From Burkholderia sp. WP9 (GTDB lineage Bacteria > Pseudomonadota > Gammaproteobacteria > Burkholderiales > Burkholderiaceae), in the NCBI RefSeq assembly GCF_900104795.1, contig NZ_FNTG01000001.1, positions 4,278,001 through 4,342,000 of the forward strand: DNA of 64,000 nucleotides, written 5' to 3'. The notes below the pieces were generated by a model. It was not told the DNA's origin. It worked only from the letters and a program-made list of their open reading frames with translations, and did not search any database. Made by a program: the position numbers and the translations under genes. This document shows positions 13,809 through 47,176 of this stretch, piece after piece. Numbering within the stretch: position 1 is the first letter of the stretch; each line of letters begins with the position of its first letter.

Positions 13809-13817
13809 TGCTGGACA

Positions 13818-15005: not shown

Positions 15006-15008
15006 CGC

Positions 15009-15704: not shown

Positions 15705-15726
15705 TGTTGTCTCACTTTGGAATCGC

Positions 15727-15737
15727 GGTCTGACCAG
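15727..15737. promoter_or_regulatory. operator-like palindrome at the regulator's own promoter
   Basis: GGTCTGACCAG shares the GGTCNGACC core with the site at 15885-15899 and fits the FadR-type TNGTNNNACNA pattern except at one outer base. It lies just downstream of a reverse-strand -10 TACAAT (15739-15744), suggesting autorepression. Confidence 0.6.
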
Positions 15738-15842
15738 CATTGTAATACGCGGTCCGAACGCTCGTGCAGCTTACCGTTTGCCGACGCCGATCCGGACTGA
15801 AAACGCTGCAAAAACAGCGGGTAAACACTGTTTTATGAAACC

Positions 15843-15871
15843 TTGACGCCAGTATATCGGCTTCCTACTAT
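15843..15871 (+). promoter_or_regulatory. sigma-70 type promoter of the dicarboxylate transporter operon
   Basis: TTGACG (15843-15848), 17-base spacer, TACTAT (15866-15871). Transcription would begin near 15878, immediately before the operator palindrome. Confidence 0.65.
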
Positions 15872-15884
15872 TCGACATAACAGC

Positions 15885-15899
15885 ACTGGTCGGACCAGT
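15885..15899. promoter_or_regulatory. perfect GntR/FadR-type operator palindrome
   Basis: ACTGGTC-G-GACCAGT has 7-bp perfect arms and matches TNGTNNNACNA. It is placed directly after the predicted +1 and 35 bases before the transporter start, where a bound repressor would block elongation. Confidence 0.75.
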
Positions 15900-15933
15900 C
15901 TGAACAGATGTGAATCGTAACCAGGAGGAAGCC

Positions 15934-17256: not shown

Positions 17257-17377
17257 ACCGCCTGAAATCTGCTTCCGAATCCGCGCGCGCCCACGCAGCA
17301 GCGCGCGTTCTGCGCCGGCAGAGGCTGCACATGCCGGCTCTCCTTCACTTTTTCGCGCCTGACCGAGACTAGAGACA

Positions 17378-18388
17378 ATGGCTAATCCGATCCTCGACCC
17401 CAACGCTCCTGCTTTCACCCGTCGCTATATGAACCTCGCCGACCCGCGTCTGGGCGCGAAGGCGCTCTTCGCCAGCGACGAATTCTTCGCGCCGAAAGAA
17501 CGCATGCTCGAACCGCAACCGGCGGTGTTCATTCCCGGTAAGTACGACGACCACGGCAAGTGGATGGACGGTTGGGAAACCCGCCGCAAGCGCACCACCG
17601 GTCACGATTACTGTGTGATTCGTCTCGCGCGGCCAGGCGTCGTTTACGGCGTGGATCTGGATACGAGCCACTTCACCGGCAATTTTCCGCCGGCCGCATC
17701 GATCGACGCCTGCTACGTGGAGGGTGACGTTCCGCCCGACAACGCCGACTGGCAAACGCTCGTGCCGGCGACCACGTTGCAGGGCAACCAGCACCACTAC
17801 GTCGACGTCAGCGACGCGCGCGCCTTCACCCATTTGCGTGTGAATCTGTATCCGGACGGCGGCCTTGCCCGCCTACGCGTGTACGGCCAGCCGAAGCGAG
17901 ATTGGGAGCGCGTCGAGCGCGGCACGCTGTTGGATCTGGCCGCCATCGAAAACGGCGCGTATCTGGTTGCCGCTAACAACCAGCACTTCGGGCCGGCCTC
18001 GCAAATGCTGATGCCTGGCCGTGGCGTCAACATGGGCGACGGCTGGGAAACGCGGCGCCGTCGCGAGCCGGGCAACGACTGGGCGATCGTCGCGTTGGCG
18101 CGGCCGGGCGTGATCCGCAAGATCGAAGTGGATACGGCGCACTTCAAGGGCAATTTCCCGGACCGCTGCTCGCTGCAAGCCGCGTCGGTGACGGGCGGCA
18201 CGGACGATTCGCTCGTTACGCAGGCGATGTTCTGGCCGGTGCTGCTCGGCGAACAGAAACTGCAGATGGACCACGTCCACACCTTCGCGGACAACCTCGC
18301 GTCGCTGGGCCCGGTCACGCACGTGCGTTTCAATATCTTTCCGGACGGCGGCGTGTCGCGCCTGCGCCTGTGGGGCGAAATCGCATAA
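17378..18388 (+). CDS. alc: allantoicase
   Basis: Hydrolyses allantoate to ureidoglycolate and urea in purine catabolism. The 336 residues contain two tandem jelly-roll repeats, as expected: one around [43 protein letters not shown] (about 64-105) and a matching unit around [40 protein letters not shown] (about 222-262). ATG 17378 is supported by family-like [21 protein letters not shown] shortly after. It is separated by about 120 bases from the transporter and by 16 bases from ureidoglycolate lyase, so it probably shares the GntR-controlled transcript. Confidence 0.94.
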
Positions 18389-29291: not shown

Positions 29292-29726
29292 GACGGGGCG
29301 AGCTTTCGGTGGGTTCGTTCGTCAGGCTGCGGGCTTGGGTTGGATGAAGGGCGGTTTGCTGGATTCGGCAAACTGCCTTTTTTTATGGTCGGTGCTGATG
29401 TGCGACGCGTTGTCTTAGGCCGAATGGCTAGCGCGGTCGTGAGGCTATATTGGGACGGCCAATGCGCGTGTGGGCTGAATTATAATTTCCGAACCACTGG
29501 CACCAACCGGTGGTCAGGTTTAGCAGCCTGTGCCGAAAACCGCACACCCGCCGAGGCGGGGCGTGCGTCTGCCTCTGCACGTCTCATTTCCATGGGCGGG
29601 CCGTGGTGGGGAGCCGAAAGGCTCGCCGGTATGTTTTTGGCCCGGTCTGCTAACCCGCTACGTGCCCGCTCACCCTCCTTGCAAGCGAGTGTCGGGCGAT
29701 CCAGTTAAGTTTCAGGAGATCGCACC
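29292..29726 (+). promoter_or_regulatory. accessory leader region with Ash/Icd-like sequence and hairpin
   Basis: A 435-base gap with no ordinary gene. A consensus -10 TATAAT is at 29481-29486. A hairpin follows at about 29492-29513 (ACCACTGG...CCGGTGGT with one G-U pair). From about 29530 to 29708 two overlapping frames read PKTAHPPRRGVRLPLHVSFPW and ENRTPAEAGRASASARL, which resemble the short 'Ash family / host cell division inhibitor Icd-like' products annotated in enterobacterial P4-type phages. It may be a structured leader whose translation is incidental. An AGGAG ends the block at 29714-29718 before an ATG at 29727. Confidence 0.45.
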
Positions 29727-30216: not shown

Positions 30217-30259
30217 GTTAGGTCCTTGGCTCAGCGCTATTGAACGCCTATGCGCTATC

Positions 30260-30600
30260 TCAGCGCGTCGTAGTTGACGACGCCACACGCCATGCATCTC
30301 CGCGTCGCACATACAGATTGGTGAAAAGCATTAGCGGTTGTTTTCATGCCGGCGCTCGGTGTGTAGTGGTTGACTCCGGAAACCATCGCGACATTTCCAA
30401 AGACTCGCACCTTCAGTTCGCCGAGCGTTTTGCGCGGACCTAGGCAGAAACATCGGCGCGAGCAGGACGTCGGCCTTCGTACGACGCGCACCGTTAGCCA
30501 TCGTCTCGACGAACGAATCGTCGAGCAGTTGGTCGAGCGTCGCGCGGTCGCCGCGAATGATAGGCTGAGGACAGTCAGGAAGGTAGGTGTTTCATGATCT
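30260..30600 (-). pseudogene. decayed DUF4440/NTF2-like paralogue
   Basis: Reverse-strand fragments match the intact gene just upstream (30714-31139) but in several frames. One frame reads VRVFGNVAMVSGVNHYTPSAG, aligning with VDVHVNGDMAIVIGTNHFKPG; after a shift another reads TNLYVRRGDAWRVASSTTTR then TGA (30260-30262), aligning with TDVFVRRVDGWRVVSSQMTR. Further upstream LDQLLDDSFVET-like sequence appears in a third frame. At least two frameshifts and no usable start, so this is a degraded tandem duplicate. No function is expected. Confidence 0.75.
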
Positions 30601-30713
30601 ATATCCGCTGAATGGGCGACTCTAGGTCTCTTAGGTTGGTTTGCCAGATCACCTTGGATCGCCACCTACAAGCGCATCGGCTTTGCGGCGGCGCTCAGGC
30701 CGCCGCGTTTGAC

Positions 30714-31139
30714 TCATCGACGAGTCATTTGCGATGACACGACACGCCAGCCGTCGACTCTGCGCACGAAGACATCGGTAAACGAATAGTCCACCGGCTG
30801 AACGGTAGGGCCCGGCTTGAAATGATTGGTGCCGATGACGATGGCCATGTCGCCGTTCACATGCACGTCCACATCCATCAAGACTTGCGATGACCCCCGC
30901 GGCGGTGGCGGCGCGAGCAGCACATCGGATTTGCTGCGGCGCTGGCCGTTAGGAGAAGTTTCCACAAATGAATCGTCAAGAAGCTTGTCCATCGTGGCGC
31001 GGTTGGTGGTTAGGATTGCTTGGATCCAGGTTTGCTCCATTGCCTTCAATGTCGCTTCGTCGTTATCGGCAGCGAATGCGCGGGGTGCGGTAAAGCATAG
31101 TGTTAGGAGAGTTAGCGCGAGATAGGAGCGGGATTTCAT
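30714..31139 (-). CDS. exported DUF4440/SnoaL-like (NTF2-fold) protein
   Basis: A 141-residue protein with a signal peptide (KSRSYLALTLLTLCFTAPRAFA, split about residue 23) and a single DUF4440/NTF2-like domain: DEATLKAMEQTWIQAILTTNRATMDKLLDDSFVET, then VDVHVNGDMAIVIGTNHF, and the closing VFVRRVDGWRVVSSQMTR. Such cone-shaped alpha-beta proteins bind or convert small molecules, but the family is too diverse to assign a role. Start 31139 fits the signal peptide; ATG at 31148 or 31157 is also possible and no clear ribosome site decides. It lies beside a broken copy of itself, in lower-GC DNA than the flanks. Confidence 0.72.
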   Translation of the reverse strand: MKSRSYLALTLLTLCFTAPRAFAADNDEATLKAMEQTWIQAILTTNRATMDKLLDDSFVETSPNGQRRSKSDVLLAPPPPRGSSQVLMDVDVHVNGDMAIVIGTNHFKPGPTVQPVDYSFTDVFVRRVDGWRVVSSQMTRR

Positions 31140-31157
31140 AATAGATAACATTATCAA

Positions 31158-31670: not shown

Positions 31671-34600
31671 GTGAATAAATCATACAAAACAGTCTGGAAT
31701 GAGACCACCGGTACCTACGTCGCGGCACCTGAAGTAGCAAAGAGCCGTGGGAAGAAGAGTCCTTCTTCCAGAACACTTATGGTGGCACTCATGGCGGCTG
31801 GAGCCGGCAGCGTGGCATCGATGGATGCGCACGCGGGCGCGCTCGACGGCGGTACGGTAAGCCAGAGCCAAGACCTTGCGTATGGCACCGGTGCAGTATC
31901 GTCGAGCGCCGATAGCTATAACGCAAGTATCGCAATCGGCAACAACGCTACGGCGACAAATCAACTGTCGATTGCGATTGGTACAGGGGCAACGTCAACG
32001 GGACTGCATGCCGTCGTCATTGGGGGCGGGGCTGCGGCAGCCGGCAATGACAGCACGATAATCGGCTCCGGTGCGAGCGGCACGAATACATGGGCAACGG
32101 CTGTCGGCTCTTCTGCGAAAGCCGGCTATTTTGATGTCGCAGTCGGAGCTGTTGCTACAGCTGCGGGCGGAGATTCTGTCGCGTTCGGTTCGGCTGCAAA
32201 AGCGATTGGCGCATGGTCTTCAGCGCTCGGCGATAGCTCACAGGCGACGACTGCGAACTCGGTGGCACTGGGCTCGAACTCGGTGGCGAATTCGACGACA
32301 CTGACGACGGCAGGCTTCACGCCGGTCGGCGGCACGGCGATCTCGGCGGCCACGGCGCTCGGCGGTGAAGTGTCGGTTGGCGCGGCGGGCAAGGAGCGCC
32401 GCATCACGAATGTGGCAGCAGGTCTGAACGCGACGGATGCAGTGAACGTAAGCCAGTTGCAGTCGGAAGACGCGAAGGTGAACACGGTTAGTAACAACGT
32501 GAACAACCTGAGCAACACCATCACCAACATCAACAACGGTGGTGGCATCAAGTACTTCCATACGAACTCGACTGGAACCGACTCGTCGGCAACGGGTGGA
32601 AATGCGATTGCGATCGGCTCCGCCGCAACTTCCAGTGGCAGCGGTACGATTGCCATGGGAACGGGTGCCCAGGCAAGCGACAACTACACAACGGCGATCG
32701 GCAACCTTGCTTACGCCGCCAATCCGGGAGGAATCGATGCTTCAGGTTCTTCAACGGCGGTCGGCGCATCTTCAACGGCATCTGGCATGTACTCGACGGC
32801 CGTCGGTACGTTGTCGAGAGCAAGTGGCGGAGCATCGAGTGCTTTGGGCGTGAACGCGACCGCGAGCGGCGACCGCTCGATCGCGTTGGGTGCAAGTTCG
32901 CAAGGTTCGGGAAGCTATGCAGCGGCGCTTGGCACGCTCAGCACTGCGTCGGGCGCAAATTCTTCGGCAATCGGCACACAATCGAAGGCGACTGGCGGAA
33001 ATTCCGTGGCGGTCGGCAATAACGCGCAAGCGCAAAACACTTCGGCCATTGCTATAGGCCAGGCGGCTATCGGCTCAGGTAGCGGATCGACCGCGATTGG
33101 CCAGGCATCGACGGCCAGCGGAAACAATTCGGTTACCGTAGGTAGCTCCGCCATGGGCGCGGGGACAAGTGCAATTGCCGTTGGCTCGTCGGCGAAGGCC
33201 GCGGCTGATTACACATTCGCGGCAGGCAACGCGGCATCGGCTGTGAGCCTTGGCGACATCGCGTTGGGCGCCTCGTCAACGGCCAGCGGTGCCGGCGGCA
33301 CTTCCTACGCCACCGCACTGGGGACCAATGCCCAGGCGATTGGAGCCAGTACGGTCGCAGTCGGCGGCGGCGCGAAAGCGACGGCGGCAAATTCGGTGGC
33401 ACTGGGCGCGAACTCGACCACCACGGCAAACCTGTCGGCAGCCGGTTACAACCCGGGTACAGGTACGCTCTCGGGTATTGCTTCGGCGGCCAACGGTGAA
33501 GTGTCGGTGGGTTCCACAGGCAAGGAGCGTCGCATCACGAACGTGGCCGCCGGCTCGGCCGCGACAGATGCAGTGAACGTGAGCCAGTTGATGTCGGAAG
33601 ACGCCAAGGTGAACACGGTTAATAGCAACGTGACCAACCTGAGCACCACCGTCACCAACATCACCAACGGTGGTGGTATCAAGTATTTCCATGTGAACTC
33701 GACGGCGGCGGACTCGTCCGCGGGCGCGGCTCAGAGCGTAGCCATTGGTGGCAATGCCGTTACCGGCGGCGGTGCCAAGTCGATCGCCATCGGGGAGAAC
33801 GCTTCGGCTGCAGGCGCTTACAGCTCCTACGGTGGGGATGGCGCGTACAACACAGCGATCGGCGCCGGTGCGACGGCGGACGGCACTTCTGGAAACTGGG
33901 GGCACAATACAGCACTCGGTGGCAATACCAATGCGACCGGCACCAATGCTGTCGCTTTGGGTTACGGCGCGACGGCCGTGGCAGCGCAAGCGAGCGCGAT
34001 GGGTTATACCGCCACCGCAAGCGGGGCCAATTCTGTGGCGTTGGGCGGCGCCGCGAGTGCGACGGCGGGGAACTCGGTGGCACTGGGCGCAAGTTCGACG
34101 ACAACCGGTGCCAACTCGGTCGCGGTTGGACCCGCAGCGGTGGCGTCCGGTCAGAGCGCAACAGCAATGGGTCAGGCGTCGACGGCCTCGGGTGCCTACA
34201 CGAATACGATGGGTTATCAGACGGTCGCCGCGGCTTCGGACGGGATTGCCATTGGCACGCAGGCGAACGTGACTTCAAGCGCCGCACAAGGCGTCGCGAT
34301 CGGTGCGCGGGCAACTGCGTCAGGCAGCAGCTCAATTGCGATGGGCAACTCGGCGGCGGCAAGCGGCACGGGTGATATGGCATTCGGCGCATCATCGATA
34401 GCGAGCGGAGCAGGTGTCAGCGCAGCGACGGCGATGGGCTACGCTTCTTCGGCCAATGCTGTGGGTTCTACCGCGATTGGTGGATATTCGTCTGCGACGG
34501 GCGCGAATTCGTCGGCGTTCGGCTATAACGCAAAGGCAACGGCGGCCAATTCGGTGGCGCTCGGGCAGGGCTCGACGACGACAGCGAACCTATCGGCAGC

Positions 34601-37600
34601 GGGTTACAACCCGGGCTCGGCAACGCTCTCGGGTATTGCTTCGGCGGCCAACGGTGAAGTGTCGGTGGGCTCAGCAGGCAAGGAGCGTCGCATCACGAAC
34701 GTGGCGGCCGGTTCGGCGGCCACGGACGCGGTGAACGTGAGCCAGTTGATGTCGGAAGACGCAAAGGTGAACACGGTGAATAACAACGTGAACAACCTGA
34801 GCACGAGCGTCACGAACATCAACAACACGGTGAATAACATCACCAGCGGTTCGGGCATCAAGTACTTCCACGCGAACTCGACGGCGGCGGACTCGTCGGC
34901 AACGGGAACGAACTCCGTGGCGATCGGTGACAAGGCGTCGTCGCTTGGCGGTTCGTCGGTTGCGATGGGTGACAGTGCGACGGCAGCGGGGGCGGCCAGT
35001 ATTGCGATCGGTAACAACGCGCAGAATGTAACCGGCGCGAACAATTCGATTGCCATCGGCGGAGATTCGAAGGCGGCTGACAAATCCGTTTCTCTGGGCA
35101 ATGGTGCTGATACTTCGCTGTCGAGTTGGGGCGTTGCGGTTGGCACGAACGCGAAGGTTTCGGCTGCGCTGGGCACGGCAATTGGTGGTGGTGCCATGGT
35201 TAGCGGTGCGAATGGGACGGCGATCGGCACGAACGCTGTGGCCTCAGCGGTCAACTCGGTGGCGTTGGGCAACGCAGCGACGACGACGGCGAACCTGTCG
35301 GCCGCGGGTTACAACCCGGGCACGGGCACGCTCTCGGGTACGGCATCGACCGCTAACGGTGAAGTGTCAGTCGGTTCGGCAGGCGCGGAGCGTCGCATCA
35401 CGAACGTGGCCGCCGGCTCGGCCGCGACAGATGCAGTGAACGTGAGCCAGTTGATGTCGGAAGATGCGAAGGTGAACACGGTTAATAACAACGTGAACAA
35501 CCTGAGTAACAGCATCACGAATATCACCAATACGGGCACCAAGTATTTCCACGTAAATTCGACGTTGGCAGATTCTTCAGCCAGTGGGGGGAACGCTGTT
35601 GCGATTGGTGCCGTTGCGAATGCATCGGGAGGAAGCGCGATTGCAGTGGGTAATAACGCAACCGCATCGGTTGCTTACTCGGTTGCGATGGGCAACAGCG
35701 CTAACGTATCTGGGGCCAACGGAACAGCATTTGGTTATACCTCGACGGTGGTGGGGTCTGGCGGTGTCGCATTGGGCAACGCCACCTATTCGAAGGGAGA
35801 GTCGGCGGTAGCACTGGGCAACGGCTCGACCGCGACTGGCGACTATTCGCTGGCAATGGGCAAGATCTCGACTTCAACGGGGACGAGCGCAGTTGCACTG
35901 GGCTTCAACTCGACCGCGTCAGCGGCCAATTCAGTGGCGCTGGGTTCGGGTTCGACGACGACGGCAAACCTGTCGGCAGCCGGTTACAACCCGGGTACAG
36001 GTACGCTCTCGGGTATTGCTTCGGCGGCCAACGGTGAAGTGTCGGTGGGTTCCGCAGGCAAGGAGCGTCGCATCACGAACGTGGCCGCCGGCTCGGCCGC
36101 GACAGATGCTGTGAACGTGAGCCAGTTGATGTCGGAAGACGCCAAGGTGAACACGGTTAATAGCAACGTGACCAACCTGAGCACCACCGTCACCAACATC
36201 ACCAACGGTGGTGGCATCAAGTATTTCCATGTGAACTCGACGGCGGCGGACTCGTCAGCGGGCGCGGCTCAGAGCGTAGCCATTGGTGGCAATGCCGTTA
36301 CCGGCGGCGGTGCCAAGTCGATCGCCATCGGGGAGAATGCTTCGGCTGCAGGCGCTTACAGCTCCTACGGTGGGGATGGCGCGTACAACACAGCGATCGG
36401 CGCCGGTGCGACGGCGGACGGCACCTCTGGAAACTGGGGGCACAATACAGCGCTCGGTGGCAATACCAATGCGACCGGCACCAATGCTGTCGCTTTGGGT
36501 TACGGCGCGACGGCCGTGGCAGCGCAAGCGAGCGCGATGGGTTATACCGCCACCGCAAGCGGGGCCAATTCTGTGGCGTTGGGCGGCGCCGCGAGTGCGA
36601 CGGCGGGGAACTCGGTGGCACTGGGCGCAAGTTCGACGACGACCGGCGCCAACTCGGTCGCGGTTGGACCCGCAGCGGTGGCGTCGGGTCAGAGCGCAAT
36701 GGCAATGGGTCAGGCGTCGACGGCCTCGGGTGCCTACACGAATACGATGGGCTATCAGACGGTCGCAGCGGCTTCGGACGGGATTGCCATTGGCACGCAG
36801 GCCAATGTCGGTAGCGCTGCGTCACAAGGCATTGCAATCGGTGCGCGGGCGACGTCATCGGGGAGCAGTGCTGTAGCGCTGGGGAACACCGCAAAATCGA
36901 TCGGGACGAGCGCGATCGCGCTGGGCTCGTCGTCGACGGCTGCGGCGAACTATACGTTTGCGGCAGGCAACGCGGCATCGGCCGTGGCCCTTGGCGACAT
37001 CGCGCTGGGCGCCTCGTCGACGGCCAGCGGTGCCGGCGGCACTTCGTACGCCACCGCACTGGGGACCAATGCCCAGGCGATTGGAGCCAATGCCGTCGCA
37101 GTCGGCGGCGCCGCGAAAGCGACGGCGGCAAATTCGGTGGCATTGGGCGCGAGCTCGACGACCACGGCAAACCTGTCGGCATCGGGTTACAACCCGGGTA
37201 CGTTGACCCTGTCGGGTACGGCTTCGGCGACCAACGGTGAGGTGTCAGTGGGCTCGGCGGGCAAGGAGCGTCGCATCACGAATGTAGCAGCGGGTTCGGC
37301 TGCGACGGATGCGGTGAACGTGAGCCAGTTGATGTCGGAAGACGCGAAGGTGGACACGGTTAATAACAACGTGAACAACCTGAGCACCACCGTCACCAAC
37401 ATCGCCAACGGTGGCGGCATCAAGTACTTCCACGCAAACTCGACGCTGGCGGATTCGACGGCAACGGGTGCCAACTCGGTCGCGGTTGGACCCGCAGCGC
37501 TGGCGTCGGGTCTGAGTGCAACGGCAATGGGTCAGGCGTCGACCGCCTCGGGCGCGTACACGAATACGATGGGCTATCAGACGGTCGCCGCGGCTTCGGA

Positions 37601-40600
37601 CGGGATTGCCATTGGCACGCAGGCGAACGTGACTTCCAGCGCCGCACAAGGTGTTGCTATCGGTCAACGCGCCACGGCGTCAGGCAGCAACGCAGTTGCG
37701 ATGGGCAGTACGGCGGCGGCAAGCGGCACCGGTGATATGGCATTCGGTGCATCATCGTTAGCGAGCGGGGCAGGTGTCGGCGCAGCGACGGCGATGGGCT
37801 ACGCTTCTTCGGCCAATGCTGCGGGTTCTACGGCGATTGGTGGATATTCGTCTGCGACGGGCGCGAATTCGTCGGCGTTCGGCTACAACGCAAAGGCAAC
37901 GGCGGCCAATTCGGTGGCGCTCGGGCAGAGCTCGACGACCACGGCGAATCTGTCGGCAGCGGGTTACAACCCGGGTACGGGCACGCTCTCGGGCATTGCA
38001 TCGGCGGTTAACGGTGAAGTGTCGGTGGGTTCGGCAGGCAAGGAGCGTCGCATTACGAACGTGGCAGCCGGTTCGGCGGCGACGGATGCAGTGAACGTGA
38101 GCCAGTTGATGTCGGAAGACGCAAAGGTGAACACGGTCAATAGCAACGTGAACAACCTGAGCAACACCGTCAACAACATCAATACGGCGACGGGCAACAT
38201 TTCCAACATTAACAACACGGTGACCAACATCACCAATGGTGGTGGCATCAAGTATTTCCACACGAATTCGACGCTGGCGGATTCGACCGCGAACGGCGTT
38301 GGTGCGGTGAGCGTGGGCGGAGCGGCGATCTCGGACGCGGCGGATGGCGTGTCGATCGGCACAAGCGCGACGGTCGCGACCACGGCGACGAGCGGCATTG
38401 CGATTGGCAAGAACTCGAGGGTTGGCGCCAGCTCGGTGGATTCGATCGCGATTGGCGATGGTGCAAGTGCGACTGTGGCGAACTCGATAGCGCTGGGCTC
38501 GAATTCGACGACCACGGCAAACCTGTCGGCGGCCGGTTATAACCCGGGTACGGGCGTGCTCTCGGGTACGGCTTCGGCGGCTAACGGCGAAGTGTCGGTG
38601 GGCTCGACAGGCAAGGAGCGTCGAATCACGAACGTAGCAGCCGGCGCGGCCGCGACGGATGCGGTGAACGTGAGCCAGTTGCAGTCGGAAGACGCGAAGG
38701 TGAACACGGTTAATAACAACGTGAACAACCTGAGTGGCAACGTCACGAACATCGCTGGCAACGTCACCAACATCAGCAATACGGTGAACAACATCACCAA
38801 CGGTGGTGGCATCAAGTACTTCCACGTGAACTCGACGCTGGCGGATTCGTCGGCGACAGGTGCCAACTCGGTCGCGGTTGGACCCGCAGCGGTGGCGTCG
38901 GGTCTGAGTGCAACGGCAATGGGTCAGGCTTCGACCGCCTCGGGTGCGTACACGAATACGATGGGCTATCAGACAGTCGCCGCGGCTTCGGACGGGATTG
39001 CCATTGGCACGCAGGCCACTGTCGGTAGCGCTGCGTCACAAGGCGTCGCGATCGGCGCGCGGGCAACATCATCGGGGAGCAGTTCTGTAGCGCTGGGGAA
39101 CGCGGCAACGTCGTCGGGGGGCAGTGCTGTAGCGCTGGGGAACGCGGCAAAATCGATCGGGACGAGCGCGATCGCACTGGGCTCGTCGACGGCTGCGGCG
39201 AACTACACGTTTGCAGCAGGCAACGCAGCATCGGCCATGGCTCTTGGCGACATCGCGCTGGGCGCCTCGTCGACGGCCAGCGGTGCCGGCGGCACATCCT
39301 TCGCCACCACGCTGGGGACCAATTCCCAGGCGATTGGAGCCAATACCGTCGCGGTCGGCGGCGGCGCGAAAGCGACGGCGGTAAATTCGGTGGCACTGGG
39401 CGCGAACTCGACGACTACGGCGAACCTGTCGGCCGCCGGTTACAACCCGGGTACGGGCACGCTCTCGGGTACGGCATCGACCGCTAACGGCGAAGTGTCG
39501 GTGGGCTCCGCAAGCGCGGAGCGCCGCATCACGAACGTGGCAGCGGGTTCGGCCGCGACGGACGCGGTGAACGTGAGCCAGCTGATGTCCGAAGACGCGA
39601 AGGTGAACACGGTTAATAACAACGTGAATAACCTGAGCGGCAACGTCACGAATATCGCGGGCAATGTCACCAACATCAGCAACACGGTGAACAACATCAC
39701 CAATGGCGGTGGTGGGATCAAGTACTTCCATGCGAACTCGACGTTGGCTGACTCGTCGGCAACGGGTACGGACGCGGTGGCGATCGGTGGTGCGGCAACT
39801 GCCTCGGCAGCGAACTCGGTCGCACTGGGCTCGAACTCGACGACGACGGCGAACCTGTCGGCTGCGGGTTACAACCCGGGCTCGGGGGCGCTGTCGGGCA
39901 CGGCATCGGCAGCCAATGGTGAAGTCTCGGTGGGGGCATCGGGCAAGGAACGTCGTATCACGAACGTTGCAGCCGGCTCGGCTGCGACGGATGCGGTGAA
40001 CGTAAGTCAGCTGATGTCGGAGGATGCAAAGGTCAACGCGGTCAACAGCAACGTGACCAACCTCAGCAACAACGTCACGAACATCGCGGGCAATGTCACG
40101 AACATCAGCAACACGGTGAACAACATCACCAACGGTGGCACTGGCATCAAGTATTTCCACACGAACTCGACACTGACTGATTCGACCGCGAATGGCGTTG
40201 GTGCGGTGAGCGTCGGCGGTGCGGCGATCTCGGACGCTACGGATGGCGTGTCGATCGGCACAAGTGCGACGGTCGCGACCACGGCGACGAGCGGCATTGC
40301 GATTGGCAAGAACTCGAGGGTTGGCGCCAGCTCCGTAGATGCGATCGCGATTGGCGATGGTGCGAGTGCGACTGCGGCGAACTCGGTCGCGCTGGGCGCG
40401 AACTCGACGACGACGGCAAACCTGGCGACTGCGGGTTACAACCCGGGCAGCGGCACGTTGTCGGGCACGGCATCGACCGCTAATGGTGAAGTGTCGGCGG
40501 GAGCATCGGGCAAGGAACGTCGCGTCACCAACGTGGCTGCCGGTTCGGCGGCAACCGACGCGGTGAACGTCAGCCAGTTGATGTCAGAAGACGCGAAGGT

Positions 40601-43600
40601 CAACACGATCAACAGCAACGTGAACAACCTGAGCACCAGTGTCACGAACATCAGCAGCACGGTGAATAACATCACCAACGGTGGTGGCGGCGTCAAATAC
40701 TTCCACGCGAACTCGACGCTAGCGGACTCGTCGGCAACGGGTACGGACTCGGTGGCGATCGGGGGCAATGCGTCGGCAACGGCGGCGAACTCGATAGCAC
40801 TGGGTTCGAACTCGACGACGACGGCAAACCTGTCGGCAGCGGGTTACAACCCGGGGACGGCAACGCTGTCGGGCACGGCTTCGGCAGCCAATGGCGAAGT
40901 CTCTGTCGGCGCCGCAAGCAAGGAACGCCGCGTCACGAACGTGGCAGCCGGCTCGGCCGCAACGGACGCGGTGAACGTCAGCCAATTGATGTCAGAAGAC
41001 GCAAAGGTCAACACGATCAACAACAACGTGACCAACCTCAGCAACAACGTCACGAACATCGCAGGCAACGTCACCAACATGAGCAACGTGGTGAACAACA
41101 TTACCAACGGTGGTGGCGGGGTCAAATACTTCCATGCGAACTCGACGCTGGCGGATTCTTCGGCGTCAGGTACGGATGCGGTCGCGATCGGGGGCAATGC
41201 ATCGGCAACGGCAGCGAACTCGGTCGCACTGGGCTCGAACTCGACGACGACGGCAAACCTGTCGGCAGCAGGTTACAACCCGGGCACGGGAGCGCTTTCG
41301 GGCACAGCATCGGCGGTCAATGGCGAAGTGTCGGTCGGTGCAGCAGGCAAGGAGCGTCGCGTGACGAACATTGCAGCCGGTTCGGCTGCAACGGATGCGG
41401 TGAACGTCAGCCAGTTGATGTCGGAGGATGCAAAGGTCAACGCGATCAATAGCAACGTGACCAACCTCAGCAACAACGTCACGAACATCGCAGGCAACGT
41501 CACCAACATGAGCAACGTGGTGAACAACATTACCAACGGTGGCAACGGCATCAAGTACTTCCACGCGAACTCGACGCTGGCTGACTCGTCGGCAACGGGC
41601 ACGGACGCGGTGGCGATCGGTGGCAACGCTCAGGCGACAGCGGCGAACTCAATAGCGTTGGGCTCGAACTCAACGACCACGGCAAATCTCTCGGCCGCAG
41701 GCTACAACCCAGGCACGGCAACACTGTCGGGCACGGCATCCGCAGCCAATGGTGAAGTCTCGGTCGGCGCCGCAGGCAAGGAACGTCGCATCACCAACGT
41801 GGCAGCGGGTTCGTCCGCAACGGACGCGGTGAACGTCAGCCAGTTGATGTCAGAAGACGCGAAGGTCAACACGATTAATAGCAACGTGACCAACCTGAGC
41901 AACAACGTCACGAACATCGCAGGCAATGTCACCAACATTAGCAACACGGTGAACAACATCACCAATGGCGGTGGCGGCATCAAGTACTTCCACGTGACCT
42001 CGACGCTCGCGGATTCGTCGGCGTCGGGTACGGATGCGGTGGCGATCGGGGGCAATGCATCGGCATCGGCAGCCAACTCGGTCGCGCTGGGTTCAAACTC
42101 GACGACAACGGCGAACCTGTCGGCAGCGGGTTATAACCCGGGCACGGCGGCGCTGTCGGGCACGGCATCGGCGGTCAATGGTGAGGTTTCTGTCGGCGCA
42201 GCAGGCGAAGAACGTCGCATGACGAACGTGGCAGCAGGCTCGGCCGCGACCGATGCGGTGAACGTCAGCCAGTTGATGTCGGAAGACGCGAAAGTCAACA
42301 CGATCAACAACAACGTGAACAACCTGAGTACCAGCGTCACCAACATCAGCAACACGGTGAACAACATCACCAATGGTGGCACTGGAATCAAATACTTTCA
42401 CGCGAACTCATCGCTGGCGGATTCGTCGGCGTCGGGCACGGATGCGGTGGCGATCGGTGGTAACGCCTCGGCGACAGCGACTAACTCTGTAGCACTGGGT
42501 TCGAACTCGACGACCACGGCTAACCTGTCGGCGGCAGGTTACAACCCGGGCACCACGGCTCTGTCGGGCACGGCATCGGCAGCCAATGGCGAAGTGTCGG
42601 TGGGCGCCGCAGGCAAGGAACGCCGCGTCACGAACGTGGCAGCCGGATCTGCAGCAACGGACGCGGTGAACGTCAGCCAGTTGATGTCGGAGGATGCAAA
42701 AGTCACCACGATCAACAATAATGTGACCATCCTCAGCAATAACGTCACGAACATCGCGGGCAACGTCACCAATCTTAGCAACACGGTGAACAACATCACC
42801 AGCGGTGGCAGCGGCATCAAGTATTTCCACACCAACTCGACGCTGGCTGACTCATCGGCAACGGGTGCGGACGCAGTCGCCATTGGTGGCAATTCATCGG
42901 CGACGGCAGCGAACTCGGTCGCGCTGGGTTCGAACTCGACGACGACGGCAAACCTGTCGGCAGCGGGGTACAACCCAGGCCCGGCAACACTTTCCGGCAC
43001 GGCATCGGCAGCTAATGGCGAGGTGTCGTTGGGCGTCGCAGGCAAGGAACGTCGTATCACCAACGTGGCAGCGGGCGCGGCCGCAACGGACGCGGTGAAC
43101 GTGAGCCAGTTGATGTCGGAAGACGCGAAGGTCAACACAATCAACAACAACGTGACCAACCTCAGCAACAACGTCACGAACATCGCAAGCAACGTAACCA
43201 ACATCAGCAGTACGGTGAACAACATCACCAATGCTGGCAGCGGCATCAAGTACTTTCACGCGAACTCATCGTTGGCCGACTCATCGGCAACGGGTACGGA
43301 CGCAGTCGCCATTGGTGGCAATGCATCGGCATCGGCGGCTAACTCTGTCGCACTCGGTTCGAACTCAACGACCACGGCAAACCTGTCGGCCGCAGGCTAC
43401 AACCCAGGCACGGCAACACTGTCGGGCACGGCATCCGCAGCCAATGGTGAAGTGTCGGTGGGCGCCGCAGGCAAAGAACGTCGCATCACCAACGTGGCAA
43501 CCGGTTCAGCCGCAACGGACGCAGTAAACGTGAGCCAGCTTCAATCGGAAGACGCAAAGGTCAATGCCGCGGGTTCAGGCACGGCGGCTGCACTGGGCGG

Positions 43601-46319
43601 CGGTTCTACCTACAACACGACGACGGGTGCGATCACCAACCCGACGTATGTATTGAATGGCGGCAAGACGTTCAACAACGTGGGCGACGTGGTCGAGAAC
43701 ATCGACGGTCGCGTGACGCAGAACACGACTGACATCACGAACCTGACCAACAACATCAACAACGGTGAAGTCGGTCTCGTGCAGCAGGATGCAAGTTCAC
43801 GCAACATCACGGTGGCGAAGGACAGCGACGGCACGGTGGTGGACTTGGCGGGTACGGCGGGGCCGCGCAAGCTGACGGGTTTGTCGGCAGGTGATGTGAA
43901 CGCAACGAGCGTGGATGCGGTGAACGGCTCGCAGTTGTATGCGACGAACCAGAATGTGTCGAACGTCGGCAACACGGTCAACAATCTGAGTAACGACGTC
44001 ACGAACATCAACAATACGGTGAACAACATCACCAATGGTCTTGGCGGCATCAAGTACTTCCATGCGAACTCGACGCTGGCGGATTCGTCGGCAACGGGTA
44101 CGGATGCAGTCGCCATTGGTGGCAACGCTCAGGCGACGGCAGCGAACTCGGTTGCACTGGGTTCGAACTCGACGACGACGGCAAACCTGTCGGCAGCGGG
44201 TTACAACCCGGGCACGGCAACACTGACGGGCACGGCATCGGCAGCCAATGGTGAAGTCTCGGTAGGCGCTGCAGGCAAGGAACGCCGCATCACGAACGTC
44301 GCAGCCGGTTCGGCCGCAACGGACGCGGTCAACGTCAGCCAGTTGCAGTCGGAAGACGCGAAGGTCAACACGATCAACAACAACGTGACCAACCTGAGCA
44401 ACAACGTCACGAACATCGCGGGCAACGTCACCAACATCAGCAACACCGTGAACAACATCACCAACGGTGGCAACGGCATCAAGTACTTCCACGCGAACTC
44501 GTCGCTGGCGGATTCATCGGCAACGGGCACCAACAGCCTGGCAGCCGGCCCGGCGGCGTTGGCGGCCGCCACGGACGCAGTCGCACTGGGTAACGGCGCG
44601 AAAGCGTCCAACGCTGGCGCAGTAGCACTAGGCGCAGGGTCGACGACCACAACGGCGGTCGCCACGTCCGGCACGACGATAGGCGGCATCACCTACACGT
44701 TTGCAGGCATGGCTCCGTCGAGCACGGTGAGCGTGGGTGCAGCGGGCAGCGAGCGCACGATCACGAACGTGGCGGCTGGCCGCCTGAGCGCGACGAGCAC
44801 GGATGCGGTGAACGGCAGCGAACTGTTCGCCACCAACCAGCAGGTGACGCAGAACACCACGGACATCACCAACCTGACGAACAACATGAACAACGGTTCG
44901 GTCGGCTTGGTGCAGCAGGACGCGACGTCGCGCACCATCACGGTCGCGAAGGGCACCGACGGCGCGCTGGTCGACTTTGCCGGGACAGCAGGCGCGCGTC
45001 AGCTGACGGGTGTGGCCGCCGGCGCAGTGACCGCGACAAGCGTGGATGCGGTGAACGGCGCGCAGCTCTACGGCGTGTCGCAGAGCGTGGCGGATGCGAT
45101 CGGCGGTGGCTCGACGGTGAACACGGATGGCTCGATCTCGGCCCCGACTTACGTGGTGAACGGCGCGACCGTCCACAACGCGGGCGACGCGATCACCAAC
45201 CTCGACAACCGTGTGACGCAGAACACCACCAATATCAGCACGATCAACAACACGCTGAACAGCATCACCACCGGCGGTGGCGTCATGTACGTCCACGTGA
45301 ACTCGGCCCTGGCCGATTCGCAGGCAAGCGGTGCGGAGTCGGTGGCGATCGGCGGTAACGCGCAGTCGCAGGCAGCGAACTCGGTCGCGTTGGGTTCGAA
45401 CTCCGTCGCTAACCGTGCCAACACGGTGTCGGTGGGGGCGGCCGGAGCGGAGCGCCAGATCACCAACGTGGCGGCCGGTACGGCGGATACGGACGCGGTG
45501 AACGTCGCGCAGTTGAAGGCGTCGGGCGTGATCAATACGGATGGCACGACCAACGCTGCCGTGACGTACGACCACAACGCTGACGGGTCGGCGAACTACA
45601 GCAGCGTCACAATGGGTAACGGCGTGGCGGGCGGCACGACGATCCGCAACGTGGCGGCAGGCACGGCCGCTGACGATGCGGTCAACGTCAGCCAGATGAA
45701 CGCGGCCATCTCCAACGTCACGAATATCATCAGCTCGGCAGGCAACCCGATGTTCGCGGCAGACGGCAACCGTGACACGGAATCGGCCGTTGCCAGCGGC
45801 ACGCACGCCACGGCAATGGGCGCGAACGCGAAGGCGAGCGCGGCGAATTCGGTGGCGCTGGGTGCGAACTCGGTGGCGGATCGCGAGAACACGGTGTCGG
45901 TGGGTTCGGCGGGCAACGAACGCCAGATCACCAACGTCGCGGCCGGCACGGCAACCACCGACGCAGTCAACGTCGGCCAGTTGAACGAAGCGATCGGCGC
46001 GTCGGTCGGCAACCTGCCGGCCGGTACCTCGGCGAAGGACTACACGGACCAGCAGATCAACGCGGTGCAGAACGGCTTGAACCAGGTCGCGAAAAATGCG
46101 TACGCAGGTATCGCGGCCGCTACGGCACTGACGATGATCCCGGACGTCGATCAAGGCAAGACGATCGCGGTCGGTGTCGGCGGCGGCTCGTATAAGGGTT
46201 CGCAGGCTGTGGCGCTCGGCGTCTCGGCCCGCATCACCCAGAACCTGAAGATGAAGGCCGGCGCGGGTACGAGCTCGCAAGGCACGACGGTGGGCGTGGG
46301 TGCTTCCTACCAGTGGTAA
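31671..46319 (+). CDS. giant trimeric autotransporter adhesin (YadA-like, type Vc)
   Basis: One uninterrupted frame of 4882 residues. GTG 31671 begins the extended signal peptide NKSYKTVWNETTGTYVA; a hydrophobic core leads to cleavage near AHA55. The passenger consists of YadA-head repeats (SVAIGxxAxAxG type), necks with the HIM-like ERRITNVAAG...DAVNVSQL, and short Asn/Val-rich coiled-coil stalks ending IKYFHxNS. Nineteen KYFH-marked supermodules run from codon 32550 to 44481; many are exactly 143 residues apart. Two stalk inserts with GLVQQDA...RNITVAKD occur near 43.75 and 44.9 kb. The C-terminal about 90 residues (from TDQQINAVQNGLNQV to GVGASYQW) form the beta-barrel anchor with terminal aromatic Trp. 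Expected at the cell surface as a trimer, in adhesion or biofilm formation. An OmpA-type lipoprotein gene follows. Confidence 0.96.
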   Translation: MNKSYKTVWNETTGTYVAAPEVAKSRGKKSPSSRTLMVALMAAGAGSVASMDAHAGALDGGTVSQSQDLAYGTGAVSSSADSYNASIAIGNNATATNQLSIAIGTGATSTGLHAVVIGGGAAAAGNDSTIIGSGASGTNTWATAVGSSAKAGYFDVAVGAVATAAGGDSVAFGSAAKAIGAWSSALGDSSQATTANSVALGSNSVANSTTLTTAGFTPVGGTAISAATALGGEVSVGAAGKERRITNVAAGLNATDAVNVSQLQSEDAKVNTVSNNVNNLSNTITNINNGGGIKYFHTNSTGTDSSATGGNAIAIGSAATSSGSGTIAMGTGAQASDNYTTAIGNLAYAANPGGIDASGSSTAVGASSTASGMYSTAVGTLSRASGGASSALGVNATASGDRSIALGASSQGSGSYAAALGTLSTASGANSSAIGTQSKATGGNSVAVGNNAQAQNTSAIAIGQAAIGSGSGSTAIGQASTASGNNSVTVGSSAMGAGTSAIAVGSSAKAAADYTFAAGNAASAVSLGDIALGASSTASGAGGTSYATALGTNAQAIGASTVAVGGGAKATAANSVALGANSTTTANLSAAGYNPGTGTLSGIASAANGEVSVGSTGKERRITNVAAGSAATDAVNVSQLMSEDAKVNTVNSNVTNLSTTVTNITNGGGIKYFHVNSTAADSSAGAAQSVAIGGNAVTGGGAKSIAIGENASAAGAYSSYGGDGAYNTAIGAGATADGTSGNWGHNTALGGNTNATGTNAVALGYGATAVAAQASAMGYTATASGANSVALGGAASATAGNSVALGASSTTTGANSVAVGPAAVASGQSATAMGQASTASGAYTNTMGYQTVAAASDGIAIGTQANVTSSAAQGVAIGARATASGSSSIAMGNSAAASGTGDMAFGASSIASGAGVSAATAMGYASSANAVGSTAIGGYSSATGANSSAFGYNAKATAANSVALGQGSTTTANLSAAGYNPGSATLSGIASAANGEVSVGSAGKERRITNVAAGSAATDAVNVSQLMSEDAKVNTVNNNVNNLSTSVTNINNTVNNITSGSGIKYFHANSTAADSSATGTNSVAIGDKASSLGGSSVAMGDSATAAGAASIAIGNNAQNVTGANNSIAIGGDSKAADKSVSLGNGADTSLSSWGVAVGTNAKVSAALGTAIGGGAMVSGANGTAIGTNAVASAVNSVALGNAATTTANLSAAGYNPGTGTLSGTASTANGEVSVGSAGAERRITNVAAGSAATDAVNVSQLMSEDAKVNTVNNNVNNLSNSITNITNTGTKYFHVNSTLADSSASGGNAVAIGAVANASGGSAIAVGNNATASVAYSVAMGNSANVSGANGTAFGYTSTVVGSGGVALGNATYSKGESAVALGNGSTATGDYSLAMGKISTSTGTSAVALGFNSTASAANSVALGSGSTTTANLSAAGYNPGTGTLSGIASAANGEVSVGSAGKERRITNVAAGSAATDAVNVSQLMSEDAKVNTVNSNVTNLSTTVTNITNGGGIKYFHVNSTAADSSAGAAQSVAIGGNAVTGGGAKSIAIGENASAAGAYSSYGGDGAYNTAIGAGATADGTSGNWGHNTALGGNTNATGTNAVALGYGATAVAAQASAMGYTATASGANSVALGGAASATAGNSVALGASSTTTGANSVAVGPAAVASGQSAMAMGQASTASGAYTNTMGYQTVAAASDGIAIGTQANVGSAASQGIAIGARATSSGSSAVALGNTAKSIGTSAIALGSSSTAAANYTFAAGNAASAVALGDIALGASSTASGAGGTSYATALGTNAQAIGANAVAVGGAAKATAANSVALGASSTTTANLSASGYNPGTLTLSGTASATNGEVSVGSAGKERRITNVAAGSAATDAVNVSQLMSEDAKVDTVNNNVNNLSTTVTNIANGGGIKYFHANSTLADSTATGANSVAVGPAALASGLSATAMGQASTASGAYTNTMGYQTVAAASDGIAIGTQANVTSSAAQGVAIGQRATASGSNAVAMGSTAAASGTGDMAFGASSLASGAGVGAATAMGYASSANAAGSTAIGGYSSATGANSSAFGYNAKATAANSVALGQSSTTTANLSAAGYNPGTGTLSGIASAVNGEVSVGSAGKERRITNVAAGSAATDAVNVSQLMSEDAKVNTVNSNVNNLSNTVNNINTATGNISNINNTVTNITNGGGIKYFHTNSTLADSTANGVGAVSVGGAAISDAADGVSIGTSATVATTATSGIAIGKNSRVGASSVDSIAIGDGASATVANSIALGSNSTTTANLSAAGYNPGTGVLSGTASAANGEVSVGSTGKERRITNVAAGAAATDAVNVSQLQSEDAKVNTVNNNVNNLSGNVTNIAGNVTNISNTVNNITNGGGIKYFHVNSTLADSSATGANSVAVGPAAVASGLSATAMGQASTASGAYTNTMGYQTVAAASDGIAIGTQATVGSAASQGVAIGARATSSGSSSVALGNAATSSGGSAVALGNAAKSIGTSAIALGSSTAAANYTFAAGNAASAMALGDIALGASSTASGAGGTSFATTLGTNSQAIGANTVAVGGGAKATAVNSVALGANSTTTANLSAAGYNPGTGTLSGTASTANGEVSVGSASAERRITNVAAGSAATDAVNVSQLMSEDAKVNTVNNNVNNLSGNVTNIAGNVTNISNTVNNITNGGGGIKYFHANSTLADSSATGTDAVAIGGAATASAANSVALGSNSTTTANLSAAGYNPGSGALSGTASAANGEVSVGASGKERRITNVAAGSAATDAVNVSQLMSEDAKVNAVNSNVTNLSNNVTNIAGNVTNISNTVNNITNGGTGIKYFHTNSTLTDSTANGVGAVSVGGAAISDATDGVSIGTSATVATTATSGIAIGKNSRVGASSVDAIAIGDGASATAANSVALGANSTTTANLATAGYNPGSGTLSGTASTANGEVSAGASGKERRVTNVAAGSAATDAVNVSQLMSEDAKVNTINSNVNNLSTSVTNISSTVNNITNGGGGVKYFHANSTLADSSATGTDSVAIGGNASATAANSIALGSNSTTTANLSAAGYNPGTATLSGTASAANGEVSVGAASKERRVTNVAAGSAATDAVNVSQLMSEDAKVNTINNNVTNLSNNVTNIAGNVTNMSNVVNNITNGGGGVKYFHANSTLADSSASGTDAVAIGGNASATAANSVALGSNSTTTANLSAAGYNPGTGALSGTASAVNGEVSVGAAGKERRVTNIAAGSAATDAVNVSQLMSEDAKVNAINSNVTNLSNNVTNIAGNVTNMSNVVNNITNGGNGIKYFHANSTLADSSATGTDAVAIGGNAQATAANSIALGSNSTTTANLSAAGYNPGTATLSGTASAANGEVSVGAAGKERRITNVAAGSSATDAVNVSQLMSEDAKVNTINSNVTNLSNNVTNIAGNVTNISNTVNNITNGGGGIKYFHVTSTLADSSASGTDAVAIGGNASASAANSVALGSNSTTTANLSAAGYNPGTAALSGTASAVNGEVSVGAAGEERRMTNVAAGSAATDAVNVSQLMSEDAKVNTINNNVNNLSTSVTNISNTVNNITNGGTGIKYFHANSSLADSSASGTDAVAIGGNASATATNSVALGSNSTTTANLSAAGYNPGTTALSGTASAANGEVSVGAAGKERRVTNVAAGSAATDAVNVSQLMSEDAKVTTINNNVTILSNNVTNIAGNVTNLSNTVNNITSGGSGIKYFHTNSTLADSSATGADAVAIGGNSSATAANSVALGSNSTTTANLSAAGYNPGPATLSGTASAANGEVSLGVAGKERRITNVAAGAAATDAVNVSQLMSEDAKVNTINNNVTNLSNNVTNIASNVTNISSTVNNITNAGSGIKYFHANSSLADSSATGTDAVAIGGNASASAANSVALGSNSTTTANLSAAGYNPGTATLSGTASAANGEVSVGAAGKERRITNVATGSAATDAVNVSQLQSEDAKVNAAGSGTAAALGGGSTYNTTTGAITNPTYVLNGGKTFNNVGDVVENIDGRVTQNTTDITNLTNNINNGEVGLVQQDASSRNITVAKDSDGTVVDLAGTAGPRKLTGLSAGDVNATSVDAVNGSQLYATNQNVSNVGNTVNNLSNDVTNINNTVNNITNGLGGIKYFHANSTLADSSATGTDAVAIGGNAQATAANSVALGSNSTTTANLSAAGYNPGTATLTGTASAANGEVSVGAAGKERRITNVAAGSAATDAVNVSQLQSEDAKVNTINNNVTNLSNNVTNIAGNVTNISNTVNNITNGGNGIKYFHANSSLADSSATGTNSLAAGPAALAAATDAVALGNGAKASNAGAVALGAGSTTTTAVATSGTTIGGITYTFAGMAPSSTVSVGAAGSERTITNVAAGRLSATSTDAVNGSELFATNQQVTQNTTDITNLTNNMNNGSVGLVQQDATSRTITVAKGTDGALVDFAGTAGARQLTGVAAGAVTATSVDAVNGAQLYGVSQSVADAIGGGSTVNTDGSISAPTYVVNGATVHNAGDAITNLDNRVTQNTTNISTINNTLNSITTGGGVMYVHVNSALADSQASGAESVAIGGNAQSQAANSVALGSNSVANRANTVSVGAAGAERQITNVAAGTADTDAVNVAQLKASGVINTDGTTNAAVTYDHNADGSANYSSVTMGNGVAGGTTIRNVAAGTAADDAVNVSQMNAAISNVTNIISSAGNPMFAADGNRDTESAVASGTHATAMGANAKASAANSVALGANSVADRENTVSVGSAGNERQITNVAAGTATTDAVNVGQLNEAIGASVGNLPAGTSAKDYTDQQINAVQNGLNQVAKNAYAGIAAATALTMIPDVDQGKTIAVGVGGGSYKGSQAVALGVSARITQNLKMKAGAGTSSQGTTVGVGASYQW
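33423..34265 (+). repeat. adhesin internal duplication, copy A
   Basis: 843 bases nearly identical to 35961-36803 (offset 2538, a multiple of 3). About 15 differences were counted by eye, mostly at third codon positions. It covers a neck, a stalk, the KYFH motif and a long head segment. Confidence 0.85.
34107..34790 (+). repeat. adhesin internal repeat, partner of 37467-38150
   Basis: A second long repeat at offset 3360 bases. It overlaps the end of duplication copy A, giving a mosaic of shared blocks. It includes the head segment with MGYQTVAAASDGIAIGTQ and the following neck. Confidence 0.75.
35961..36803 (+). repeat. adhesin internal duplication, copy B
   Basis: Second copy of the 33423-34265 block. 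The copies diverge abruptly after about 34265 and 36803. Confidence 0.85.
37467..38150 (+). repeat. adhesin internal repeat, partner of 34107-34790
   Basis: Same block as at 34107 with scattered differences; the boundaries were judged by eye. Confidence 0.75.
39720..44481 (+). repeat. tandem 429-bp (143-residue) head-neck-stalk supermodules
   Basis: KYFH codons fall at 39720, 40149, 40695, 41124, 41553, 41982, 42390, 42819, 43248, 44052 and 44481. Seven of the ten intervals are exactly 429 bases; the exceptions are 546, 408 and 804. Each unit runs KYFH, short head, SNSTTTANLSAAGYNPG loop, neck, stalk. Confidence 0.9.
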
Positions 46320-46444
46320 GTGCCATGACGGATGGGGCGTGAGCCTCGTCCGTCAGCCAGATCTGCTTTGACTTGACTGCATGCGCGCCCTTGTCCGAGG
46401 AACACACGGCAAGGGCGCCGCCTCAATTGACTGAATCCCTGAAA

Positions 46445-47176
46445 ATGAACTTAACGCTTTCCAAGTCTTCGCGCGCGCTATTGCTCGGCGCGTGTGTGAT
46501 GTTTCTCGCTGCGTGCAGCACGCAGTCGGGCCCAACCTATACGCTTCACGCGGTGAGCGTGCCGAATCAGCAGGCGCCGATCTATCGGGTCAATTGCGAG
46601 GGACTCTTCGAAAGCTCGAAGAGTTGCGTGCGTGTGGCGGGGCAGACCTGCAAGAATCAACCGGTGACATGGCTCGAAGCCGTTGATCGCGTAAGCGACG
46701 GCGCGCTGAAGAAGGATGCGCGCGAATTGACCTTCATGTGCGGCAAACCGGTTGTTGCAGAGCAGCTCCCGCAGCAGCCGGTGCTGCAACAGCCCGCTGC
46801 GCAGCCGCAAGCAAAACAGGTGGCGCCGCAGGTTCGCCTGCTGCTGCAAGGCAACGCGAACTTCGCGACGGATAGCGCGGTGCTTGGCTCAATTGCAAAG
46901 AGGAATCTCGACCACTTCATGAGCGTGAACCGGGGCGTGAACCTGCATCGCGTGACGGTGGTGGGCTACACCGACGCGACAGGCTCGCAAGCCCATAACC
47001 TGAGCCTGTCCGAGGCTCGCGCCGACGCCGTCGCCCAATACCTGCGTGATGGCGGCCTCCATGCCGAGCAGTTCGTCGCACGAGGTCTGGGCAGCGCTGA
47101 TCCGGTCGCGTCGAATGCGACGCCCGAAGGCCGCATGCAGAACCGCCGCGTCGACGTCCGCGTATTCGCCGAGTAA
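46445..47176 (+). CDS. OmpA-domain outer-membrane lipoprotein
   Basis: A 243-residue lipoprotein: signal ending FLAAC (Cys24), a periplasmic N-terminal region (about 30-110) with Cys-containing CEGLFESSKSC and GQTCKNQPVTWLEAVDRV, a Gln/Pro linker (about 110-135), and a C-terminal OmpA peptidoglycan-binding domain with ANFATDSAVLG, VTVVGYTDATGSQAHNLSLSEARADAVAQYL and GRMQNRRVDVRV. ATG 46445 is chosen because it begins the signal; upstream frame to 46373 is non-signal sequence. It lies 125 bases after the giant adhesin, so it may help to tether or assemble it at the peptidoglycan. That role is inference. Confidence 0.88.
   Translation: MNLTLSKSSRALLLGACVMFLAACSTQSGPTYTLHAVSVPNQQAPIYRVNCEGLFESSKSCVRVAGQTCKNQPVTWLEAVDRVSDGALKKDARELTFMCGKPVVAEQLPQQPVLQQPAAQPQAKQVAPQVRLLLQGNANFATDSAVLGSIAKRNLDHFMSVNRGVNLHRVTVVGYTDATGSQAHNLSLSEARADAVAQYLRDGGLHAEQFVARGLGSADPVASNATPEGRMQNRRVDVRVFAE

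Follow-up and report, generated by a model that had tools for sequence, protein, structure and literature searches.

The window, that is the whole stretch of 64,000 nucleotides of Burkholderia sp. WP9 DNA analysed here, carries a well-preserved and very long gene which, judging from its sequence, would encode a type Vc trimeric autotransporter adhesin (TAA) of a Paraburkholderia-like bacterium, with a homotrimeric state, surface display and an adhesive role predicted from its family. We consider it very probable that the locus as a whole is best explained as an adhesive rod of type Vc containing a spacer array, whose length changes module by module through recombination. The protein family, its motifs and repeat-driven length change are already known, and what is worth keeping is the series of module-wise length variants in Paraburkholderia. 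The main features of the adhesin locus, all on the forward strand, are the following.

31671..46319, forward: trimeric autotransporter adhesin gene, 4882 codons, GTG start, intact; Pfam YadA_stalk in 25 stretches, YadA_head in 20
31671..31817, forward: ESPR extended signal peptide, residues 1-49 (PF13018, E 2.8e-13)
32550..39719, forward: N-terminal and middle part, 8 units from HANS to HANS (188-401 residues), in most of them a long YadA-like head and a short coil
33414..34264, forward: 851-bp block, copy 1 (98.1% identity to 35952-36802)
35952..36802, forward: 851-bp block, copy 2 (98.1% identity to 33414-34264)
39720..44480, forward: compact array, HANS-to-HANS units 9-18; seven of ten intervals 429 bp, the rest 408, 546 and 804
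41124..41552, forward: typical 143-residue unit, with HANS, YadA-like head turns, head-insert-like loop, neck, heptad coil and Gly linker
46140..46316, forward: C-terminal YadA membrane anchor (PF03895, E 2.4e-21, residues 81-139 of translated 45900-46316)
46373..47176, forward: OmpA-family protein gene (PF00691, E 2.2e-18), 53 bp 3' of the adhesin if TTG is the start

The adhesin frame is uninterrupted across 14.6 kb, and it has the sequence features of the type Vc class, namely the C-terminal anchor, the N-terminal ESPR and a passenger of heads, necks and coiled stalks (by Pfam, PF05658 in 20 stretches and PF05662 in 25). The YadA anchor is absent from the Pfam list of the whole protein and emerges clearly in a separate scan of the last 139 residues, where the PF03895 match covers 60 of 60 profile positions. 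The Pfam names Baculo_PEP_C, Sec3_CC, Snapin_Pallidin, LPP and DUF1664, which also occur in the stalk, are taken as coiled-coil look-alikes. Matches to the NCBIfam models of the named adhesins Ata, BimA, YadA, EmaA and Vomp all score under the curated cut-off of the respective model (919.5 bits against 2500 for Ata, 664.9 against 800 for BimA, 540.2 against 750 for YadA), so that the protein is a TAA, yet none of these named ones. The sequence-only reading, which had proposed a trimeric autotransporter of 4882 residues, was right in coordinates and counts, and the type of protein it proposed is supported by the Pfam domains.

Compared with solved structures, one 143-residue unit gives matches to 11 different PDB entries by sequence (E <= 0.001), and the best of them, extending over most of its length, are 2yo0 (3.2e-35), 4usx (2.6e-27) and BpaA 3la9 (1e-16). 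The KYFHANST of the unit aligns on KYYHANST of 2yo0 and on KYFHANST of 4usx, which identifies it as the HANS motif. Published passages state that HANS motifs occur only before YadA-like heads, and that the structure accounts for the His, Ala, Asn and Ser of the motif plus the conserved preceding Tyr and Phe (PMC2942831); HANS is also listed as a short alpha-to-beta connector (PMC7247746). By reading the units, 19 of 19 KYFH run into head repeats: the motif, first taken as the end of each stalk, rather begins the next head. KYFH as a new motif has to be ruled out, being the HANS motif of the passages just cited, and the suggestion that a KYFH-delimited pitch is of an undescribed kind is not supported either, as KYFHANS is a HANS connector with a crystal structure (PMC2942831) and the same 143-residue spacing exists in public relatives.

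The conserved NSTTTANLSAAGYNPG loop sits ahead of the neck, as had been noticed at first; it is distinct from the neck, and the 2yo0 alignment crosses it with gaps. A head insert, called HIN2 in the passage describing it, likewise precedes the neck (PMC2942831), and by this position and the published passages we name the loop head-insert-like. The unit would thus be made of HANS, a short head, a head insert, a neck and a coil, all of them already described in the passages cited. A low-confidence AlphaFold model of a two-unit monomer (mean pLDDT 56, pTM 0.32) places a helix at unit residues 95-137 and may be used in support of the coil helix only. Among the literature matches listed for the letter string KYFH none concerned a TAA by its title, serum amyloid A being the commonest title subject, and no account of this gene was found among the listed open-licence publications on Paraburkholderia TAAs or P. 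xenovorans YadA adhesins.

There are 19 KYFH sites, with codon starts from 32550 to 44481, and all of them read KYFHx[NT]S; a further copy, the 20th, has diverged to MYVHVNS and is located at residue 4539 (~45285), ahead of the C-terminal part. The 18 intervals between the KYFH sites are 1131, 1179, 681, 678, 1203, 828, 564, 906, 429, 546, 429, 429, 429, 408, 429, 429, 804 and 429 bp. The first eight are aperiodic (564-1203 bp, or 188-401 residues) with no two equal, and the regular pitch is confined to the membrane-proximal half, where Tandem Repeats Finder reports a period of 429 over 40641-43564 (6.9 copies, 83% matches). Our recount agrees with the earlier one, both in the 19 sites and in the seven of the last ten intervals that are exactly 429 bp, and the idea of head-neck-stalk modules at fixed pitch in what was then called the distal half is supported by Pfam, interval counts and PDB matches together. 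The supermodule had also been called exact, which is true of its length in those seven intervals and untrue of its sequence, since DNA identity among the seven 143-residue units is 81.6-88.6% (mean 85.7) and protein identity 85-96%. The 851-bp block, whose two copies share 98.1% identity, appears from its sequence to be a recent internal duplication.

The coils of the short-stalk units follow a heptad register: the frequency with which V, I, L or M recur is 0.79 at lag 7 and 0.74 at lag 14, but 0.10 at lag 6 and 0.01 at lag 8, and the hydrophobic residues show the 3/4 pattern. These coils are rich in Asn (204 of 731 residues) and contain 55 charged residues in the same 731. The sole short compact unit, of 136 residues, is shorter by exactly one heptad. 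When stalk length is taken modulo 7, two adjacent classes hold 67 of 83 single-neck units and 16 fall outside, the 83 coming from the window and eight relatives (9 genomes) and being kin by descent, so that a chi-square p-value overstates the effect; 13 loci were entered in this count, and L059, L060, L064 and L066 yielded no such unit.

From this architecture, and from what is typical for the family, we propose that three identical chains would be exported by Sec and inserted in the membrane via the C-terminal YadA anchor, and would build a long rod of beta-roll heads and trimeric coils rich in Asn and Thr, one following the other in alternation. The neck would re-nucleate each coil and the HANS connector each head. 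The compact 143-residue units may serve as a regular spacer that lifts the larger and more varied N-terminal heads off the cell surface, and their number may shift by recombination between copies, where mainly changes by whole units or heptads would be tolerated because they leave the register of the coil and the transitions between strand and helix intact. If a coil residue is taken as 0.149 nm and a head turn of 14 residues as 0.48 nm, the short-stalk coils give ~122 nm and the heads ~89 nm, i.e. ~210 nm before the C-terminal stalk, and one compact unit takes ~9 nm by a hand calculation with the same constants; the rod would be, very roughly, 200 nm long. A published passage on BpaC reports 20 head turns in 8.95 nm (PMC9543794), giving 0.45 nm per turn.

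The adjacent OmpA-like gene allows a comparison of the same locus in relatives, where it also adjoins the adhesin. It is matched at E <= 1e-40 in 76 of 144 same-genus genomes, own included, many of them weaker relatives, and 20 loci were taken from these matches, mostly the best-scoring ones (G116 and G068, among the top, were left out). Counting frames of >300 codons that carry two or more motif matches, one ending in G[AV]SYQW was found in 16 of the 20; under these settings L055, L061, L062 and L069 have none, and L065 and L067 are truncated where their contigs stop. Intervals of 142-144 residues are present in nine of the 20 loci (L050-L054, L056-L058, L067). The two closest named loci belong to P. 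xenovorans LB400 (L051) and to a Paraburkholderia metagenome bin, and it is from these two that the window is called Paraburkholderia-like. LB400 has at this place a 4732-codon frame in which 21 HANS sites are found and eight intervals measure 143 residues, and like the window adhesin it adjoins the OmpA-like gene.

Two observations on other loci may be mentioned separately. L052 and L057 each have two adhesin-motif frames in different reading frames (779 + 3505 and 1467 + 531 codons), being decayed or mis-assembled. In L063 (~13690-17360) and L064 (~14440-17650), on the reverse strand, frames of 1223 and 1069 codons lie opposite the adhesin strand and inside its coordinates, with pattern matches exactly every 112 residues (8 and 7 intervals) and without the neck motif; most likely they are an antisense reading and reflect a repeat of 336 bp within the adhesin genes concerned.

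The clearest sign of steps by modules and heptads comes from the block differences among P. graminis-type alleles. Proteins P0002-P0008, five of which bear the P. graminis name (all except P0002 and P0004), have 12-16 KYFH each and compact pitches of 150, 143, 136 and 129 residues, that is, one-heptad steps. P0007 and P0008 are one protein with different starts, with 100% identity and contigs of equal length, so there are six alleles. Compared to the reference P0003, each of the others is 99.2-100% identical over aligned residues and has one internal block difference, of 293 residues in P0005, 586 in P0007, 150 in P0004, 7 in P0002 and 699 in P0006; 293 is 143 + 150, 586 is twice 293, and 699, which fits no simple multiple, takes in larger units of the N-terminal part. 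This comparison disregards the N-terminus, as the start of P0003 is further along, and the aligner was set to prefer one long gap over several, with the pitch lists agreeing with the blocks. Some of these length differences could be due to short-read collapse, against which argue, for P0003 and P0007, the contigs of 4.26 and 4.03 Mb on which they lie. From the P. graminis-type sequences it thus seems that length changes in steps of a whole unit or a heptad, recombination being the putative cause.

The P. graminis proteins P0003 and P0007 likewise consist of HANS-delimited units, of 129-150 residues, and share the GASYQW end with LB400 and the window adhesin. L057, which stands beside the OmpA-like gene, opens with spacings 250, 242 and 256 like P0003, which suggests that these proteins come from the same locus. 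The site number differs (12-16 KYFH in the P. graminis type, 21 HANS matches in LB400, 19 KYFH or 20 HANS matches in the window), as does the pitch mix of the three, and the head-insert variant is of the TLATAGFTPVGGT type in P0003 and of the TTTANLSAAGYNPG type in the window.

A real, if smaller, chance belongs to the alternative that the compact units are themselves multivalent binding surfaces and not a passive spacer, by analogy with what has been argued for the BadA stalk. Each of them carries a YadA-like head, a fold which according to a published passage binds collagen in YadA (PMC9543794), and fibronectin binding of BadA is ascribed to its repetitive stalk motifs (PMC9602544). Their head is short, however, with 77 residues up to the neck against 123-350 in the first eight units.

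It is rather unlikely that the fixed pitch is a mere trace of recent tandem duplication, without selection on length. Such events do take place in these genes: the window gene has its own 851-bp duplication, three of the LB400 units share one and the same DNA sequence, and the mean dS of the eight LB400 units is 0.21. The seven 143-residue units of the window, however, differ by a mean pairwise dS of 0.56, more than the three single-copy flanking genes between the window genome and LB400 (0.20-0.24), with a pN/pS of 0.135, and the length of 143 residues is kept in seven of eight compact single-neck units, the eighth being exactly 7 residues shorter. The window array is probably older than its uniform pitch suggests, and as it is old and its pN/pS low, we infer that copies and pitch have been held by selection.

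The same values tell that the arrays are not orthologous position by position, since dS within the window array, and also between window and LB400 units (0.60), exceeds that of the flanks and of the region coding for the TAA anchor (0.22); for the OmpA-like gene it is 0.39. This excess may come from turnover of units, from the import of an already diverged array or from a faster change of the repeats. A tree built from 40 compact units groups all 8 from the window in a single clade (100/96) and the 9 from LB400 in another, weakly supported one (85/75); units of L054 (12 units), L052, L056 and L058 are split over more than one group, so clustering by genome is not general.

That the gene is silent or decaying seems quite improbable: split or mis-assembled frames in L052 and L057 and the four of 20 loci without a TAA-like frame with the usual end would speak for it, and the intact window frame, its ESPR and anchor and the low pN/pS among units speak against. 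An assembly artefact of over-expanded or mis-joined copies, which had been named as what would overturn the first interpretation, is hardly credible. The 851-bp block, with 98.1% identity between its copies, has a length at which short reads may be misplaced, but the longest exact repeat within the adhesin gene is 188 bp, copy-specific substitutions make every unit recognisable, the frame stays open, and the LB400 ortholog comes from a separate public genome.

The adhesive rod with a spacer array, which we prefer, has close counterparts among known systems. The best PDB match of the unit, 2yo0, we take together with 2yo3 to be SadA of Salmonella, the PDB label reading putative inner membrane protein; it has a KYYHANS connector, but in the alignment the head-insert region of its solved fragment is the shorter one, and this fragment has no regular array. 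BadA belongs to a pathogen, and its repeat unit differs from that of the window. It is described in the published passages as a 'beads-on-a-string' TAA of Bartonella henselae, with 3082 aa and ~240 nm (PMC7247746), whose domain number varies among strains, which is ascribed to recombination (PMC8859334). Head 3 of BpaA from Burkholderia pseudomallei (3la9/3laa) shows the same order of HANS, YadA-like head, head-insert region, neck and coil; unlike in the window, an FGG motif precedes it, and BpaA has four heads with low-complexity stretches between them, no regular 143-residue array being described in the passages concerned (PMC2942831).

Periscope proteins offer another parallel, being surface rods whose length varies with repeat number; in the passage that defines them they are monomeric, and TAAs are expressly excluded as lacking tandem repeat domains (PMC9704523). 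The P. graminis-type alleles do vary in repeat number between close strains, and the window adhesin would, by its TAA architecture, not be monomeric, nor is it, with 81.6-88.6% DNA identity between units, built of highly identical tandem domains. We may tentatively suggest, with somewhat less than even confidence, a trimeric counterpart of periscope proteins, i.e. that Paraburkholderia adhesins tune fibre length within a species by modules of ~143 residues and by single heptads. If true, nature would here have a ruler for fibre length, in a family to which true tandem domains have been denied, and the locus bears on the statement to this effect in the 2022 review, as far as the passage goes (PMC9704523). 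Near-identical alleles differing by modules or one heptad would be a handle on how adhesin length relates to attachment, and on how trimeric coils hold their register through recombination.

How far the array is spread was estimated by a search with query residues 2684-3860 against 5.8 billion proteins, in which 1198 candidates were scored (only those sharing most words, with lengths 0.55-1.75 times the query), 131 reached E <= 0.001 and 120 of these were listed. At least five HANS-like sites are found in 47 of the 120 listed homologues, the query left out; the names listed among the 120 include Pseudomonas, Klebsiella, Cupriavidus and Variovorax, and other pitches occur, e.g. 138, 201 and 220. 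Three of the 120 are longer than the window adhesin (P0011 with 5036 aa, P0057 with 4916, P0077 with 5240), which rules out a record; of the extreme length claimed in the sequence-only reading, a very great length stands. In a class-wide sample close units (E <= 1e-15) were present in two of 274 genomes, own included, so the close form looks lineage-restricted. Plasmid matches number 207 records, all at <60% identity.

The whole genome (9.02 Mb, 7 contigs) contains, by stalk matches, four TAA-like frames of 4886, 3028, 1263 and 995 codons, counted from stop to stop. The second giant one, of 3028 codons, is located on contig C2 at ~1694800-1703100 (reverse strand), and some of its stalk matches are 696 bp apart (1698282, 1698978, 1699674), a pitch of 232 residues.

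Upstream of the adhesin, a DUF4440/SnoaL-like gene occupies 30717-31157 on the reverse strand (PF14534, E 7e-18), and the frame beside it (30258-30665, reverse), with no Pfam match, resembles by eye a decayed second copy. On the forward strand, ~2 kb upstream of the adhesin, positions 29588-29677 match the C4 antisense RNA family (RF01695) with 67.9 bits, the cut-off being 45. A C4-like RNA is also present, on the adhesin strand, in three of the four related loci scanned (L050, L051 and L053; not L052), and in L053 group II intron matches at 9549-9624 and 16954-17102 (reverse strand) stand around this RNA upstream of the adhesin.
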